IMG/VR virus record: IMGVR_UViG_3300025319_000110
Coordinates: 1 to 22,826 of that record
Source of the DNA: a virus
Direction: 5' to 3' (one strand)
Length of the DNA: 22,826 bases
The stretch's first letter is position 1. Each line of letters begins with the position of its first letter. The notes below the pieces were generated by a model, which ran no database searches, had not been told where the DNA came from, and saw only the letters and a list, made by a program, of their open reading frames with translations. The position numbers and the translations under genes were made by a program. Below are positions 16,022 through 21,596 of this stretch, one piece after another.

Positions 16022-16363
16022 ATGAGGGAAAGATTACCCAAGAATAGTGGTTTATGTTCGCGTTGTCATGGCCCAAGAAGTAATGCAGAAAAGAGATATT
16101 GTAAAACATGCCATGCAGCATGGATGCGCGAACATAGGCCAAAATATAGTGATTTAACTGATGAACAAAGGCAGAGGTCAAATGCCAGAGCTTATGCCCA
16201 TGTTTACCGAGACAGGGGAAAACTAATAAAGCAATCTTGTGAACAATGTGGTGACGAAAACTCTCAGATACACCATGATGATTATTCTAAGCCACTTGAG
16301 ATTAAATGGTTATGCCGTAAACACCATTTAGAATTACACAGCAACCGAAGATCAGTTGTATAA
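16022..16363 (+). CDS. HNH homing endonuclease, 113 aa
   Basis: A treble-clef-like N-terminal zinc part (Cys12, Cys15, Cys27, Cys30) is followed by a basic linker and an HNH core: SCEQCG (Cys73, Cys76), IHHDD (His84-His85-Asp86) and WLCRKHHLELH (Cys98, His101, His102, His106). All catalytic and zinc residues are present, so it should be active. Such enzymes cut at or near their insertion site and spread by repair copying. The last six residues (NRRSVV) are read from the relic of the Bbp19-like tail in another frame. A TTGACA/TGTCAA inverted repeat (about 16000-16020) precedes the start. Confidence 0.9.
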   Translation: MRERLPKNSGLCSRCHGPRSNAEKRYCKTCHAAWMREHRPKYSDLTDEQRQRSNARAYAHVYRDRGKLIKQSCEQCGDENSQIHHDDYSKPLEIKWLCRKHHLELHSNRRSVV

Positions 16364-17248: not shown

Positions 17249-17560
17249 ATGAAAACATGCTCTTGTTGTGGCGCAATTAAATCATTTACTGAATTTCATA
17301 AATGTGAAAGAGGGATAGGCGGAGTAAGGGGTGATTGTATTGTTTGTTTTCGTTTAAAGGCGGCTATTAGACATAGAAAAAAACCATCAATAATGCGAGC
17401 AAGAGTCGCTGAATGGAAAAAAAATAATAAACAAAAAGTCAATAATCAGCTAAAAAAATATAGAGATGCGAATAAAGGAAAAGTGGCATTTGCCATAAAA
17501 AGATGGGGCATGAAGCATCCAGAAAAAGCACTTGCAAAGACTCGGAAGTATGTACTTTAG
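17249..17560 (+). pseudogene. N-terminal part of an HNH endonuclease gene split by a mobile element
   Basis: The protein begins MKTCSCCGAIKSFTEFHK with zinc cysteines (Cys4/Cys7 and Cys30/Cys33) and a long basic helix of N-x-x-K-V repeats, the usual N-terminal half of phage HNH proteins. The HNH core is absent. The native frame ends at 17542, where a terminal inverted repeat begins; the last residues KYVL are read from the element. The missing core is found at 19770-19999. There is no clear ribosome site. Confidence 0.85.
17543..17559 (+). repeat. Left terminal inverted repeat
   Basis: This 17-bp sequence matches the inverted sequence at the right end perfectly. The first stop after the HNH fragment (TAG, 17558-17560) lies at its inner edge. 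Confidence 0.88.
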
Positions 17561-17604
17561 TAAACCCAGCGCCAGCAAAGGGTTACAGAAGGGGTAATTT
17601 TTAG

Positions 17605-17613
17605 TTATCCACA
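17605..17613 (+). promoter_or_regulatory. DnaA box 1
   Basis: TTATCCACA is an exact consensus DnaA box. A second exact copy in the same orientation lies at 17946-17954. Two consensus boxes within 350 bp, next to AT-rich sequence, hint at DnaA-dependent control or a replicon-like origin. Confidence 0.6.
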
Positions 17614-17617
17614 GGGC

Positions 17618-17749
17618 CTATTTAGGCCAGCCGTCTTTCGGTCGTTTTTTCTTGAGGGCGTTTTGAACAGCCTTATCCCAAGGCTTGTCAGTTTTGACTC
17701 GCTCTGGTTCTGGTCCTGTCTTTTTACTTTCAGATTTTGATTTCTTCAT
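17618..17749 (-). CDS. Small lysine-rich protein, 43 aa
   Basis: The frame reads MKKSKSESKKTGPEPERVKT, then DKPWDKAVQNALKKKRPKDG and WPK. The W-x-x-A-V-x-x-A-L-x-K-K-R-P-x-x-G-W-P ending looks like a conserved small bacterial protein of unknown function, often found in mobile DNA. It is basic throughout and may bind nucleic acid. A 14-bp inverted repeat flanks it. Confidence 0.6.
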   Translation of the reverse strand: MKKSKSESKKTGPEPERVKTDKPWDKAVQNALKKKRPKDGWPK

Positions 17750-17945
17750 AATCTCAAATCATACATAAAAATATTTTTTCAATTTCTGAATAATTTTTTG
17801 CACATAGATAGTGCGTATAACCTTCAGATTAAACATATCCACCAGACGATCTCTCTGGCAGTAAAATTACCCCTTCCACAGTAAGCGCATGAATACAATG
17901 TGATTGGTGCGTAGCAACATCAACACAAGCCAGAAAATCATCATT

Positions 17946-17954
17946 TTATCCACA
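17946..17954 (+). promoter_or_regulatory. DnaA box 2
   Basis: A second exact TTATCCACA. Just downstream, ATTGTGGT is repeated at 17993-18000 and 18025-18032, exactly 32 bp (about three helical turns) apart, in AT-rich DNA. Confidence 0.6.
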
Positions 17955-18011
17955 GAAAATACAATCAATAATAACAACGAAATACACATCATATTGTGGT
18001 TTAATTAGCAC

Positions 18012-18040
18012 TTGAATACATTTTATTGTGGTGCTATAGA
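18012..18040 (+). promoter_or_regulatory. Promoter of the element's RNA unit
   Basis: TTGAAT (18012-18017) and TATAGA (18035-18040) are 17 nt apart, each 4 of 6 to consensus. The start near 18047 would produce an RNA through a TTCATTTC/GAAATGAA hairpin (18060-18084), the small ORF, the tRNA and the following hairpins, to the terminator at 18661. Confidence 0.45.
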
Positions 18041-18200
18041 TCAAAGTTACACAATATATTTCATTTCATTCTTTAAGAAATGAACATATGGAGGTTGTTC
18101 TTCATGGAAGAAACGAAGGGAGCGTGCCTGCTTTTCTTCCAATAAAGCCGCGATTTGCGGTCGCGTCCGACGGGCTTGTCCGCCGGAAGGAGGTGAGAGC

Positions 18201-18308
18201 ATGGGCTGCGAAACCAAACCCCGACGAGTTCGGGAAGGCAAAAAGCCTGGGCCGAAGACCGTACCCGTGAGACCACACAGACGGTCAACGCCCAAACCGT
18301 GCAACTAA
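18201..18308 (+). CDS. Very small basic protein, 35 aa
   Basis: AAGGAGGTGA, fully complementary to the 16S rRNA tail, lies 6 nt before the ATG at 18201. The product reads MGCETKPRRVREGKKPGPKT followed by VPVRPHRRSTPKPCN. It is strongly basic with two terminal cysteines. Small K-x-G-P-K-T-V-x-V-x-x-H-R-R proteins occur in phages, but I cannot name a function. Longer frames over the same region in other frames or on the other strand lack ribosome sites. Confidence 0.5.
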   Translation: MGCETKPRRVREGKKPGPKTVPVRPHRRSTPKPCN

Positions 18309-18360
18309 GTTAGCCAATGGCTAACCAGCTAGGCGGCAGGCACGCCACCCCTTCAACTAA

Positions 18361-18442
18361 CCCCGGTTGGCGGAAACGGAGACGCAGTGGCTTTGGGAGT
18401 CACCGGCATTACGCCTTGAGGGTTCGATCCCCTCACCGGGGA
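18361..18442 (+). tRNA. Class II tRNA, Leu-like body with UGG (Pro) anticodon
   Basis: The acceptor CCCCGGT (18361-18367) pairs with ACCGGGG (18435-18441), with A73 at 18442; CCA is not fully encoded (CCT follows). The D arm is GCG/CGC (18370-18372, 18383-18385) with the GG and AGAC features of tRNA-Leu. The anticodon stem GTGGC/GTCAC encloses TTTGGGA, so the anticodon is TGG (18394-18396). A long variable arm GGC-ATTAC-GCC makes it class II. The T arm GAGGG-TTCGATC-CCCTC is perfect. Body and anticodon disagree: leucine-like shape, proline anticodon, with C1:G72, A73, G35 and G36 as proline identity elements. Confidence 0.85.
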
Positions 18443-18470
18443 CCTTTGTTTAGTTTGGAGATGGTGTCGT

Positions 18471-18661
18471 AAACCCAAGTATACATGGGTTTCGAGAGTT
18501 TCATGGACTCTCGTCAATTACCGCATTGTAAGCGGTGTTGGCGATACCATTTCCGCCATTCTGATTACCCCATACTAATCCAGTTCCTAGATAAGGGGAT
18601 ATATCAATCCTTAATATCTATATATAGTAGTTTAAGAATGATTGGAAATCCAATCTTTTTT
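18471..18661 (+). ncRNA. Array of hairpins ending in an intrinsic terminator
   Basis: Downstream of the tRNA are three regular stem-loops: AAACCCA/TGGGTTT with an 8-nt loop (18471-18492), CGAGAGT/ACTCTCG with a 7-nt loop (18493-18513) and ACCGC/GCGGT with a 7-nt loop (18520-18536). The segment ends at GATTGG-AAAT-CCAATC plus six T (18640-18661). No gene fits here. It may be the 3' part of the tRNA precursor or a separate structured RNA. Confidence 0.45.
18640..18661 (+). terminator. Rho-independent terminator with alternative pairing
   Basis: GATTGG (18640-18645) pairs with CCAATC (18650-18655) followed by T6. A second GATTGG at 18662-18667 could pair with the same CCAATC, so an alternative, non-terminating structure is possible. 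Confidence 0.65.
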
Positions 18662-18689
18662 GATTGGAAATTGCATGTAAAATTCCTAA

Positions 18690-18896
18690 ATGGCAAAAAA
18701 ACGTGCTACCACAGGCCAATCGATACAGTTTGACTTAACTGCGAAAATGGCTGCCTATGTGAATGACCTGATGGACGAAGAAGGTTTTGGTAACCAGCCT
18801 GCTTCGATTGTCCAGGCTGTCTTTTGGGAGGGCATTAGGGCGCTCATCGACAAAAACTCCATAACACGCCGCCCAGGAAAAATAGAAAAAGACTAA
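18690..18896 (+). CDS. Small protein, possibly ribbon-helix-helix, 68 aa
   Basis: The sequence QSIQFDLTAKMAAYVNDLMD followed by EEGFGNQPASIVQAVFWEGI has the pattern of a short beta strand then two helices, as in ribbon-helix-helix DNA binders (CopG/Arc type). The C-terminus is basic. That assignment is tentative. There is no strong ribosome site; the gene starts 29 nt after the terminator. It could regulate the element's own genes. Confidence 0.55.
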   Translation: MAKKRATTGQSIQFDLTAKMAAYVNDLMDEEGFGNQPASIVQAVFWEGIRALIDKNSITRRPGKIEKD

Positions 18897-18934
18897 CTTT
18901 TTACTTGACGAAATGCCTTTACTCAACTACAATA

Positions 18935-19105
18935 TTAGTCAGAGTATGCGCCGGATACCGGGTCTGGTTCCGGGACTGTTAGAAGTTTACCATTCGCACT
19001 TTTCCAAAACTCAACCGTCTGAGCTTTAGATTCTGTTTTCTGCCAGCCAAGCTTTACAAGCGCGTTATCCAGCTCATCCTTGCTGTACAAGCGCATTGCG
19101 GCCAT
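18935..19105 (-). CDS. Small protein, weakly HicA-like, 56 aa
   Basis: The frame reads MAAMRLYSKDELDNALVKLG, then WQKTESKAQTVEFWKSANGK and LLTVPEPDPVSGAYSD. The helix, LGW-x-K, x-x-x-x-E-F-W-K-x-x-N-G-K and V-P text recalls the short HicA/double-stranded-RNA-binding-like fold, but the catalytic histidine of HicA toxins is missing, so toxin activity is not claimed. It starts 3 nt after the stop of the 126-aa gene, so the two form an operon. Confidence 0.55.
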   Translation of the reverse strand: MAAMRLYSKDELDNALVKLGWQKTESKAQTVEFWKSANGKLLTVPEPDPVSGAYSD

Positions 19106-19108
19106 TTG

Positions 19109-19489
19109 TTATGCGGCCATTCTTAGCTCAAAGCAACGATTGGTATTTTCCTTCCTGATGCCATCATCTTTCGCGGCGGCCAGAAATTCATCAAATGTCA
19201 TTAACGGAATTGCTTTACACAAGATGCCATAATTAGCTTCCATAAGTGTCTCAATTACACCCGTTATGTCATCAAACGCACGTTTCAGATCATTGCTCCC
19301 AATATGAAGCCCCAGGACATCAGTAGAATTAAAGTAGTGATACCTATCAAAATTGTGGTAGTTCACCGTAATAATAATGGTGTCTACAACAGGCTTTAAT
19401 GGGACTATTTTTTCTCTCATAAAAAACGCCTTTAACGCCCAGTCAGGACGCGGGTTATCAATATTTATCAAGTTTGTGCAAGACAGCAT
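19109..19489 (-). CDS. Hypothetical protein, 126 aa
   Basis: A -10 TATAAT on this strand (19510-19505) lies 15 nt before the ATG at 19489, implying a very short leader. The protein has VVDTIIITVNYHNFDRYHYF and later MTFDEFLAAAKDDGIRK. No family is recognised, and it lacks the HicB opening. With the downstream 56-aa gene it makes a two-gene unit in the element, formally like a toxin-antitoxin pair, but this rests only on layout. Confidence 0.5.
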   Translation of the reverse strand: MLSCTNLINIDNPRPDWALKAFFMREKIVPLKPVVDTIIITVNYHNFDRYHYFNSTDVLGLHIGSNDLKRAFDDITGVIETLMEANYGILCKAIPLMTFDEFLAAAKDDGIRKENTNRCFELRMAA

Positions 19490-19654
19490 AGATACAACAG
19501 ATTAATTATATGATTTTTTGCGTTGTTTTTCATGTGATTTACAACACAATTAGCCACTAACTATCATATATCCCTGATAAGTGACAATAAAATAACTGAA
19601 AAATCATCATTTTGGTGTACAGACATTAGCTTGTTGATTGGTTAAGCTGATCAT

Positions 19655-19699
19655 GTTTCTTGGTTGCCCCCGCGGCATAATTCCCCCCACCCAAGAAAC
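19655..19699. repeat. 9-bp inverted repeat near the right end
   Basis: GTTTCTTGG (19655-19663) and CCAAGAAAC (19691-19699) are perfect inverses with a 27-nt spacer of C-rich sequence. It stands beside the terminator at the right end of the element and may be part of the end region recognised by a transposase. Confidence 0.65.
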
Positions 19700-19700
19700 C

Positions 19701-19728
19701 AACCCCTCCCCGTGACCGAGGGGTTTTT
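19701..19728 (+). terminator. Rho-independent terminator inside right end
   Basis: AACCCCTC (19701-19708) pairs with GAGGGGTT (19718-19725), with a T-run to 19728. It would stop transcripts before they leave the element toward the capsid gene. Confidence 0.75.
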
Positions 19729-19744
19729 ATTAAACTATGTTTCG

Positions 19745-19761
19745 TAAAGTACATACTTCCG
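19745..19761 (-). repeat. Right terminal inverted repeat
   Basis: This is the exact inverse of the left terminal repeat. It is followed directly by the second copy of CAAAGACT and then by HNH coding sequence. Confidence 0.88.
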
Positions 19762-19769
19762 CAAAGACT

Positions 19770-19999
19770 GCAAAACGAGGGCCGCACAAAAAAATGCAAT
19801 ACCAAAATGGGCAAATTTTGAAAAAATAGAACAAATTTATCATAAAGCACGAATATCTGGCCTCGAAGTAGATCATATTATCCCATTGATAAGTAATAAA
19901 GTTTGTGGCTTTCATTGTGAAGATAATCTGCAACTTTTGTCTAGGACAGACAACATCAGCAAAGGTAATCATTATTGGCCTGATGGATTTTTTAATTAA
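19770..19999 (+). pseudogene. C-terminal HNH core of the split endonuclease gene
   Basis: After the second target copy, coding sequence resumes with AIPKWANFEKIEQIYHKARI, then EVDHIIPL, CEDNLQLLSRTDNISKGN and HYWPDGFFN before TAA at 19997-19999. This is a complete HNH catalytic core. Joining it to 17249-17542 gives ALAKTAKR and then needs a one-base shift, near CGAGG or in the run of seven A at 19788-19794. The gene is therefore both interrupted and frameshifted. Confidence 0.85.
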
Positions 20000-20217: not shown

Positions 20218-21114
20218 ATGTCCGTAAATATACCTTCGTGGTACGTCCAGCAATATTCCACCAACATCGATCTGTTGTTACAGCAGAAGGGCTCCAAGCT
20301 CTCCAGCGCTGTTTCAATGGGTTCTTATGTCGGCACCCAGGCCTCTCCCGTCGATCAAGTAGGTTCGATTGAAGCCAATACGGTCACCTCGCGTTTCGCC
20401 GATATGCCGCGTATTGATGCCGCACTTTCCCGGCGCTGGGTCACACCGACCGATTACGATGTGCCGCAGTTGATTGACAGCTTTGATAAATTGCGCCTCC
20501 TGACCGATCCGGGCAGCCGTTATGTTGAAAATGCGGTTTATGCCCTGGGCCGCAAGAAAGATACCGCCATCATCAATGCCTTTACCGATGCCGCGAAAAC
20601 CGGCGTCGCTGGTGCTGGCAGCACCATCTTTACCGCCGCCAATGAAGTGGATGTCTCCACCGGCGGCGCCAACTCACGCCTCAATGTCGCCAAAATCAAG
20701 GCCGTTAAGGAACTCATGCGGGCCAACTTCGTGGACTTTGACAACGATCCGGTCTATATCGGCCTGACCGCCAAAGACGAATCCTCTTTGCTGGAGGATA
20801 TCCAGATGGTATCCTCTGACTTCAATCAGAGGGACACCCCGGTTTTGCAGGACGGAAAGTTGACCCGTTTCCTCGGCATGAATTTCATTTATTGCGAACT
20901 GATTGAAAGCGTGGCTGCCGGTACGAATGAAGTGGATGTGCCGGTGTGGGCAAAATCAGGGATGCACTTGGGCGTGTGGAATGAAATACAGGCTTCAATT
21001 ACGGTGCGCAATGACATCCAGAGCGAACCGTGGCAAGCCTATGTCAAGATGACCTGCGGCGCGACCCGGCTTGAGGAAAACAAGGTATATTCAATAGAGA
21101 GCTATAGAGCATAA
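20218..21114 (+). CDS. Major capsid protein, 298 aa
   Basis: The start MSVNIPSWYVQQYSTNIDLL follows AGGAGA by 8 nt; upstream in-frame ATGs have no ribosome site. Text such as MGSYVGTQASPVDQVGSIEA, DYDVPQLIDSFDKLRLLTDP and WNEIQASITVRND is typical of the podoviral (BPP-1-like) capsid family. Length is shorter than most (about 330), mainly at the C-terminus, which ends VYSIESYRA in AT-rich codons unlike the rest. It overlaps the LAGLIDADG gene as TAATG. Confidence 0.9.
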   Translation: MSVNIPSWYVQQYSTNIDLLLQQKGSKLSSAVSMGSYVGTQASPVDQVGSIEANTVTSRFADMPRIDAALSRRWVTPTDYDVPQLIDSFDKLRLLTDPGSRYVENAVYALGRKKDTAIINAFTDAAKTGVAGAGSTIFTAANEVDVSTGGANSRLNVAKIKAVKELMRANFVDFDNDPVYIGLTAKDESSLLEDIQMVSSDFNQRDTPVLQDGKLTRFLGMNFIYCELIESVAAGTNEVDVPVWAKSGMHLGVWNEIQASITVRNDIQSEPWQAYVKMTCGATRLEENKVYSIESYRA

Positions 21115-21596
21115 TGGCTTTAAATATTACAGATATTTACTGGCTGGCCGGATTTATGGACGGTGAAGCATGTTTTTCTATGTGGGGCAAAACGCCATCT
21201 ATCACGATAGCGCAAAAGGAAATGTGGCCACTTGAAAAAGTACATAAACTTGTTGGTGGTAAATTCTATAAATTCAAGAATTGGGGAACCAATAAAGAAA
21301 CTTTTTATAATTCCCTGCATATTCATGGCAAACGCGCTATCGGCCTGATGATGACGCTTTATTCTTTGTTGTCCCCAAGGCGACAAGAAAAGATTGAAGA
21401 AATCATTGCCAAATGGAAATTAATACCTTGCCGTGGAGAACATAACAGAATCAAAACTCATTGCAAACGCGGTCATGAATTTACGGAACAAAATACATAC
21501 ATGAAAGCAGACGGTTCTGGCCGTGAATGTAGGAAATGCCAGAAGATACATAACGAAAAGTATCTCTCAAAGAAACAAGTTTTACAGATAGCTTAA
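21114..21596 (+). CDS. LAGLIDADG homing endonuclease, 160 aa
   Basis: YWLAGFMDGEACF (9-21) is a LAGLIDADG motif with the catalytic acid near Asp16/Glu18. Only one motif is evident, so the protein may act as a dimer. A C-terminal zinc finger follows (Cys117, His121, Cys139, Cys142), of the type attached to phage homing enzymes. The gene is AT-rich, overlaps the capsid stop by one base, and is clearly an insertion between capsid and cement genes. Its last residues KKQVLQIA may derive from the original capsid tail. Confidence 0.85.
   Translation: MALNITDIYWLAGFMDGEACFSMWGKTPSITIAQKEMWPLEKVHKLVGGKFYKFKNWGTNKETFYNSLHIHGKRAIGLMMTLYSLLSPRRQEKIEEIIAKWKLIPCRGEHNRIKTHCKRGHEFTEQNTYMKADGSGRECRKCQKIHNEKYLSKKQVLQIA

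Follow-up and report, generated by a model that had tools for sequence, protein, structure and literature searches.

An inserted element of 2,219 bp was found at positions 17543-19761 of a phage DNA stretch, the IMG/VR record IMGVR_UViG_3300025319_000110, whose 22,826 bases were analyzed as a whole and are called the window here. Judged from its sequence, the element is very probably a transposase-less derivative of a family of IS1595-type transposons. It carries a tRNA gene (18361-18444, plus strand) in which a leucine-type body with an extra arm is combined with the proline anticodon UGG. A first-pass annotation of this DNA had described a non-autonomous transposon inside an HNH gene; that description stands, but it lacked the IS1595-type identity.

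The element is bounded by terminal inverted repeats, CGGAAGTATGTACTTTA at 17543-17559 on the plus strand and its reverse complement at 19745-19761 on the minus strand. These repeats are perfect over 17 bp and 91% complementary when the arms are lengthened to 23 nt (out to 17565 on the left and from 19739 on the right). The 8-bp target-site duplication CAAAGACT lies directly outside them, at 17535-17542 and 19762-19769. Both features had been noted in the first-pass annotation and both were confirmed, and since the same ends and 8-bp duplications recur in relatives, a chance origin of those in the window is excluded. The same insertion, with one or both junctions at 99.9-100% identity, is present in five more IMG/VR contigs, one of which is a 41.8-kb record with the same phage DNA. 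In that 41.8-kb contig (G001, L014 end), the 23 bp past the left end of the element differ from the usual flank; the other end of the contig holds the usual flank, and the irregular end is probably a contig-end artefact.

A search for the 17-bp ends as inverted pairs, which had been proposed as a check, revealed a family in bacteria and virus contigs. Matches to the 17-mer end were found in 20 viral stretches and in 51 from genomes, the genomic ones mostly from Acidobacteria, and paired ends delimited elements of 347 bp to over 4 kb. The hosts are mainly Acidobacteria; beyond these, the family was seen in a single betaproteobacterium and in a number of virus contigs. Of 399 genomes of the Acidobacteria class, 28 contained one or more ends when 2 mismatches were allowed, compared with 1 for the reversed pattern. 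Among 369 genomes of the betaproteobacterium's class, the window-type end occurred only in that genome itself, and no near-identical autonomous element was found elsewhere in them. The study set comprised 27 elements, L153 having been excluded for its weak ends and imperfect duplication. Perfect 8-bp duplications, the length typical of the IS1595 family, flank 22 of the 27 elements including that of the window. L052 shows one once its ends are shifted by 1 nt, the duplication was untestable in L024 and L064 (contig end, Ns), and none was found in L165 and L167. The extended end consensus is CGGAAGTATGTACTTTACGCAA, where the window copy instead ends in ...ACGAAAC; its nearest relative by ends is the betaproteobacterial L052 (31 nt at 87%).

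The family is also present in other viruses. A sister element in the related phage contig L003 (6012-7285) is 97.6% identical over 781 bp and lies at a different site with the duplication AACGCGAG; its left part has been replaced, and its left end falls inside the gene for a small GWPK protein described below. This altered copy at another site shows mobility and remodelling of the element among phages. By eye, the L003 element also has a ribbon-helix-helix-like open reading frame (ORF) and a tRNA-Gly-like fragment. Full copies were found in the virus records G007 (L012), G008 (L223) and G804 (L224), with the duplications TTATTTTT for L223 and CAGGATTG for L224. In G008, a 653-bp element without a transposase, L010 (2350-3002), occurs together with the complete IS1595 element L223 (1684-4284), and their ends differ.

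A protein of about 320 residues related to that of L040 is encoded by 19 of the 27 elements. All four that were tested scored above the cut-off with both Pfam DDE_Tnp_IS1595 (E = 1e-34 to 1e-38) and the IS1595 family transposase model of NCBIfam (NF033547). Autonomous relatives with the same ends, a further check that had been proposed, were thus found in bacterial genomes with an IS1595-type transposase, and L040, L071, L012 and others encode an ISXO2-like protein. The transposase frame of L052 is apparently interrupted by a stop, its ORF having 279 residues against a longer match. The window element had been described as transposase-free, and a tblastn search of it with the family transposase indeed found nothing; the search of this phage's 41.8-kb record was negative as well. 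Because the transposase is absent here and present in 19 of the 27 elements, the window copy was classed as a non-autonomous IS1595 derivative: its ends match those of IS1595-bearing elements and the 8-bp duplication is present, whereas an ISXO2-like DDE transposase of its own is missing.

Transposase-less derivatives of insertion sequences are known as mobile insertion cassettes and miniature inverted-repeat transposable elements (MITEs). The window element has the inverted ends, target duplication, cargo and lack of a transposase of a mobile insertion cassette, and like both kinds of derivative it was presumably moved in trans. Unlike them, it has a conserved tRNA and a conserved small protein, and at 2.2 kb it is too long for a MITE. 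It shares its ends, 8-bp duplication, GWPK protein and UGG tRNA with autonomous IS1595 members (L040, L071, L012 and others), but differs from them in lacking the transposase and in its other cargo (a 126-residue ORF, a weakly HicA-like ORF and a folded RNA). In the mechanism that we infer, a transposase from a bacterial or co-infecting IS1595 copy would have recognized the ends in trans and excised the element, and the same transposase would have inserted it into the HNH gene of the phage, creating the 8-bp duplication and inactivating that gene.

The N-terminal half of this HNH / endonuclease VII-like gene (17249-17542, plus strand, 98 residues; PHROG endonuclease VII, E = 3.8e-10) lies on one side of the element, and the C-terminal half with the HNH motif (19770-19999, plus strand, 68 residues) lies on the other, in a different frame. 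The two sides had been taken for halves of one protein; database searches with the N half agree with this, and both sides align in order to one intact HNH protein from Vibrio phage 501E54-1, the N half to residues 59-153 and the C half to residues 210-269 (47% identity). As had been predicted, rejoining the flanks restores ALAKTAKR and places the C half in another reading frame. Read from the DNA, the HNH gene is broken by the insertion plus a frame change. The frame change had been ascribed to decay after the insertion; this order is plausible but unproved, since no closely related uninterrupted copy was found and the change could therefore predate the insertion. A search for a near-complete uninterrupted HNH gene, which had been proposed as a check in related phages, found none among close relatives.

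The tRNA of the element, already recognized in the first-pass annotation, is called Pro(UGG) by ARAGORN; its body, however, is leucine-type. It had been regarded as an oddity carried in place of a transposase, which did not hold: it is recurrent cargo of the family and also occurs beside intact transposases. A UGG tRNA with a leucine-type body was identified in 13 of the 27 elements, 10 by ARAGORN and three (L157, L029 and L052) by the covariance model R1. This model was built from 11 UGG tRNAs, which therefore match it by construction, and it detected five further high-scoring loci. Four of them are UGG tRNAs, namely the three just named and L005, a virus locus with one end found, and the fifth, L010, carries a UGU version. 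When the cloverleaf was imposed on 11 aligned sequences, 99.6% of the cells were paired, both-sided changes were seen in 13 of 23 pairs, and the covariation score was equalled by none of 500 shuffles. In alignment A1, U33, U34, G35 and G36 (TTGG) and the discriminator A are invariant, at a mean column identity of 69%.

Host tRNAs for comparison were taken from one Acidobacterium. Its leucine tRNAs share the D-arm type and A73 with the element tRNAs, whereas the proline tRNAs of its main set have 77-nt class I bodies, unlike the window tRNA with its extra arm. For 19 of 21 element tRNAs, the nearest host tRNA was a leucine tRNA; since several 3' ends were 1-2 bases off in this scoring, A73 was read from alignment A1 instead. 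The window tRNA has the class II body, D arm and A73 of a tRNA-Leu but not a leucine anticodon, and it does not have the class I body of the host tRNA-Pro. A second, degenerate tRNA-like stretch lies beside the UGG tRNA in L071 (2970-3039), L060 (2694-2761) and L005 (10684-10753). At L197 (G034 contig C122), in an Acidobacteria genome, 17 tRNA genes are packed within 3 kb, many of them unlike the main set.

The association between this tRNA and IS1595 transposases was also seen when the ends were not used. A pattern of D arm and anticodon matched in 51 of 299 genomes, and the matches were narrowed by eye to 15 tRNA-like places (6 known via their ends and 9 new), the rest not being folded. For six of the nine new UGG tRNAs, an IS1595 transposase lies no more than about 3 kb away; of the remainder, L258 lies at a contig edge, and L264 and L265 are without a nearby IS1595 transposase. 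Within 1.5 kb, an IS1595 transposase was found at five of six UGG tRNA loci (a set that includes one known earlier), at none of 24 non-tRNA pattern matches and at none of 30 host tRNA loci, all 30 from one genome. The new loci L260 and L261 belong to another IS1595 subgroup, with 35-36% transposase identity, different ends and their own 8-bp duplications; their tRNA has lost the long arm and retained UGG. A search starting from the transposase matched in 40 of 61 genomes, and 30 loci were scanned for tRNAs. Three held a UGG tRNA (two known), one a long-armed UGC tRNA, two a long-armed UAU tRNA and one an ordinary Leu(CAG), and 23 had none. The UAU tRNAs lie at L279 756-852 and L289 3400-3489, the latter with a serine-type G73, and the tRNA with the alanine anticodon UGC at L270 295-383, about 1.1 kb from an IS1595 transposase. 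The UGG tRNA often precedes the transposase by about 90-150 bp in the same orientation (L012, L039, L040, L071, L164 and L274), but its placement varies, being upstream on the opposite strand in L060 and L163 and downstream on the opposite strand in L165 and L166.

Allo-tRNAs, whose anticodon is foreign to the body, occur in soil Acidobacteria and others (Mukai et al. 2017, via the review PMC7609411). According to that review, their acceptor/T stems are 8/4 or 9/3 and their identity is that of serine or alanine, and one of them was reported to overlap a transposon-related ORF. The UAU tRNA loci beside IS1595 transposases fit the allo-tRNA(UAU) reported there. The window tRNA resembles allo-tRNAs in that body and anticodon disagree; in contrast to them, its acceptor/T stems are 7/5, its body is leucine-type and its anticodon is UGG.

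The leading function that we infer for the UGG tRNA is the insertion of leucine at proline codons. Leucine synthetase ignores the anticodon, and leucine charging is proposed because the tRNA body is leucine-type. It is quite possible, though short of probable, that the tRNA is expressed, charged with leucine and inserts leucine at some CCA, CCG and CCU codons; it would then be a mobile missense tRNA maintained by selection in the transposon family. In a yeast study (PMC6827378), an engineered tRNA-Ser with a proline anticodon reportedly mistranslates; it likewise combines a class II body with a proline anticodon, but unlike the window tRNA it is artificial, eukaryotic and has a serine body. 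Several observations weigh against a missense tRNA of this kind. Two of the 21 element tRNAs score nearest to a proline tRNA, and the window tRNA has C1:G72 as in host proline tRNAs. Among the contigs of this phage, four span the tRNA; three of these lack one D-loop base, which L006 has. The tRNA is missing from 14 of the 27 elements and hence is not required for transposition, and no proline-for-leucine sites were found in the transposases of tRNA-bearing elements. Recoding of the element's own transposase was rejected, as the conserved prolines are found alike in elements that have the tRNA and in those that lack it. The transposases of tRNA-bearing elements use CCA somewhat more often, and this excess was given no weight because it follows their relatedness.

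It is less likely that the tRNA-like RNA acts outside translation, in leader processing of the transposase message, in regulation or as a decoy for a tRNA-cleaving toxin. Its frequent position shortly before the transposase, in the same orientation, and the second, degenerate stretch in some elements would suit such a role, as would the reported failure of the transposon-overlapping allo-tRNA(UAU) in E. coli translation (PMC7609411). However, position and strand vary among the elements, and the full cloverleaf, the 3' A and UGG have been retained. We consider it rather unlikely that the tRNA is charged with proline and serves as an extra proline tRNA whose unusual body, for example, resists a tRNA-cutting defence or which serves poor proline codons in the phage or a new host. 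Proline synthetase reads G35, G36 and A73, all of which are present, and C1:G72 is shared by the window and L060 copies with three host proline tRNAs; most copies, however, have G1:C72 as in host leucine tRNAs, and the D arm and, mostly, the variable arm are leucine-type. That the inserted segment is an unrelated element or an assembly artefact rather than IS1595-type is highly implausible and already contradicted: although this copy is without a transposase and the G001 contig has an irregular end 23 bp past the left end of the element, five more contigs carry one or both of its junctions, and it shares its ends, the length of its duplication and two cargo genes with IS1595-bearing elements.

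The second conserved cargo gene, an addition to the genes named in the first-pass annotation, lies at 17618-17749 on the minus strand and encodes a small basic protein of 43 residues ending in GWPK. A basic protein of about 45 residues with this ending is encoded by 19 of the 27 elements, the window included, with the motif GPxPxxxKxxxxWxxAVxxxLxKKxPxxGWPK and 13 invariant columns in alignment A2. Among nine compared, that of L052 is most like the window's (59%). The protein matches no Pfam family, and its predicted structure is one helix at a mean predicted local distance difference test score (pLDDT) of 69.5. The tRNA-less elements inspected (L064, L068, L024 and L055) tend to hold a proteasome-like gene, which Pfam matched weakly in L064 (E = 0.04) and in L068 (E = 0.00013) and which was called by eye in L024 and L055.

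Immediately 5' of the tRNA, folding statistics indicate a strongly folded RNA (18115-18352, plus strand). The segment 18085-18360 has a z score of -4.9, none of 200 shuffles was as stable, and it gave no Rfam match. Downstream, a 68-residue ORF (18690-18896, plus strand) looks ribbon-helix-helix-like by eye, as all ribbon-helix-helix and HicB likenesses here were judged, and gave no match in Pfam, NCBIfam or PHROG. A 56-residue ORF (18935-19105, minus strand) is weakly HicA-like, its match to Pfam HicA_toxin (E = 0.059, 13.9 bits) being below the cut-off of 27. The 126-residue ORF (19109-19489, minus strand) is also present in the element of the related phage, and its protein gave no match in two proteobacterial genomes in a search that had no positive control. 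The DnaA boxes noted earlier exist as two perfect copies, at 17605 and 17946, but they do not characterize the family; occurring in none of the 26 other elements, they were ruled out as a replication feature. A search for plasmid carriage of the element gave no match.

The neighboring genes are those of a phage (terminase, capsid and head-tail), the terminase being closest to that of Burkholderia phage BcepC6B (40%) and near that of Methylophilales phage MEP301 (39%). Two more homing-type endonuclease genes lie near the split HNH gene, at 16022-16363 and 21114-21596. The window also encodes, at 731-2044 on the minus strand, a vWA-domain protein of TROVE / Ro60-like type (Pfam TROVE, E = 3.8e-18).

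In a literature search on tRNA-carrying transposons and IS1595 elements with a tRNA, no paper on this UGG tRNA or on IS1595 as its carrier was found, most subscription journals lying outside the search. The usual role of transfer RNA genes is that of a target for mobile elements, not of a recurrent transposon cargo. We tentatively propose that IS1595 transposons may be vehicles that spread tRNAs with mismatched body and anticodon (chiefly Leu/UGG, but also long-armed UAU and UGC) among soil bacteria and phages and locally alter the reading of proline codons, and that the reported transposon-near allo-tRNA(UAU) may be the same phenomenon. The IS1595 link would offer a home for some unexplained Acidobacteria allo-tRNAs. 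That UGG stays invariant on a leucine body in divergent transposons implies that the foreign anticodon is under selection. Should the tRNA decode, ambiguous decoding can reach a cell or phage by way of transposons; a tRNA that does not decode would instead be a tRNA-shaped regulator or decoy.

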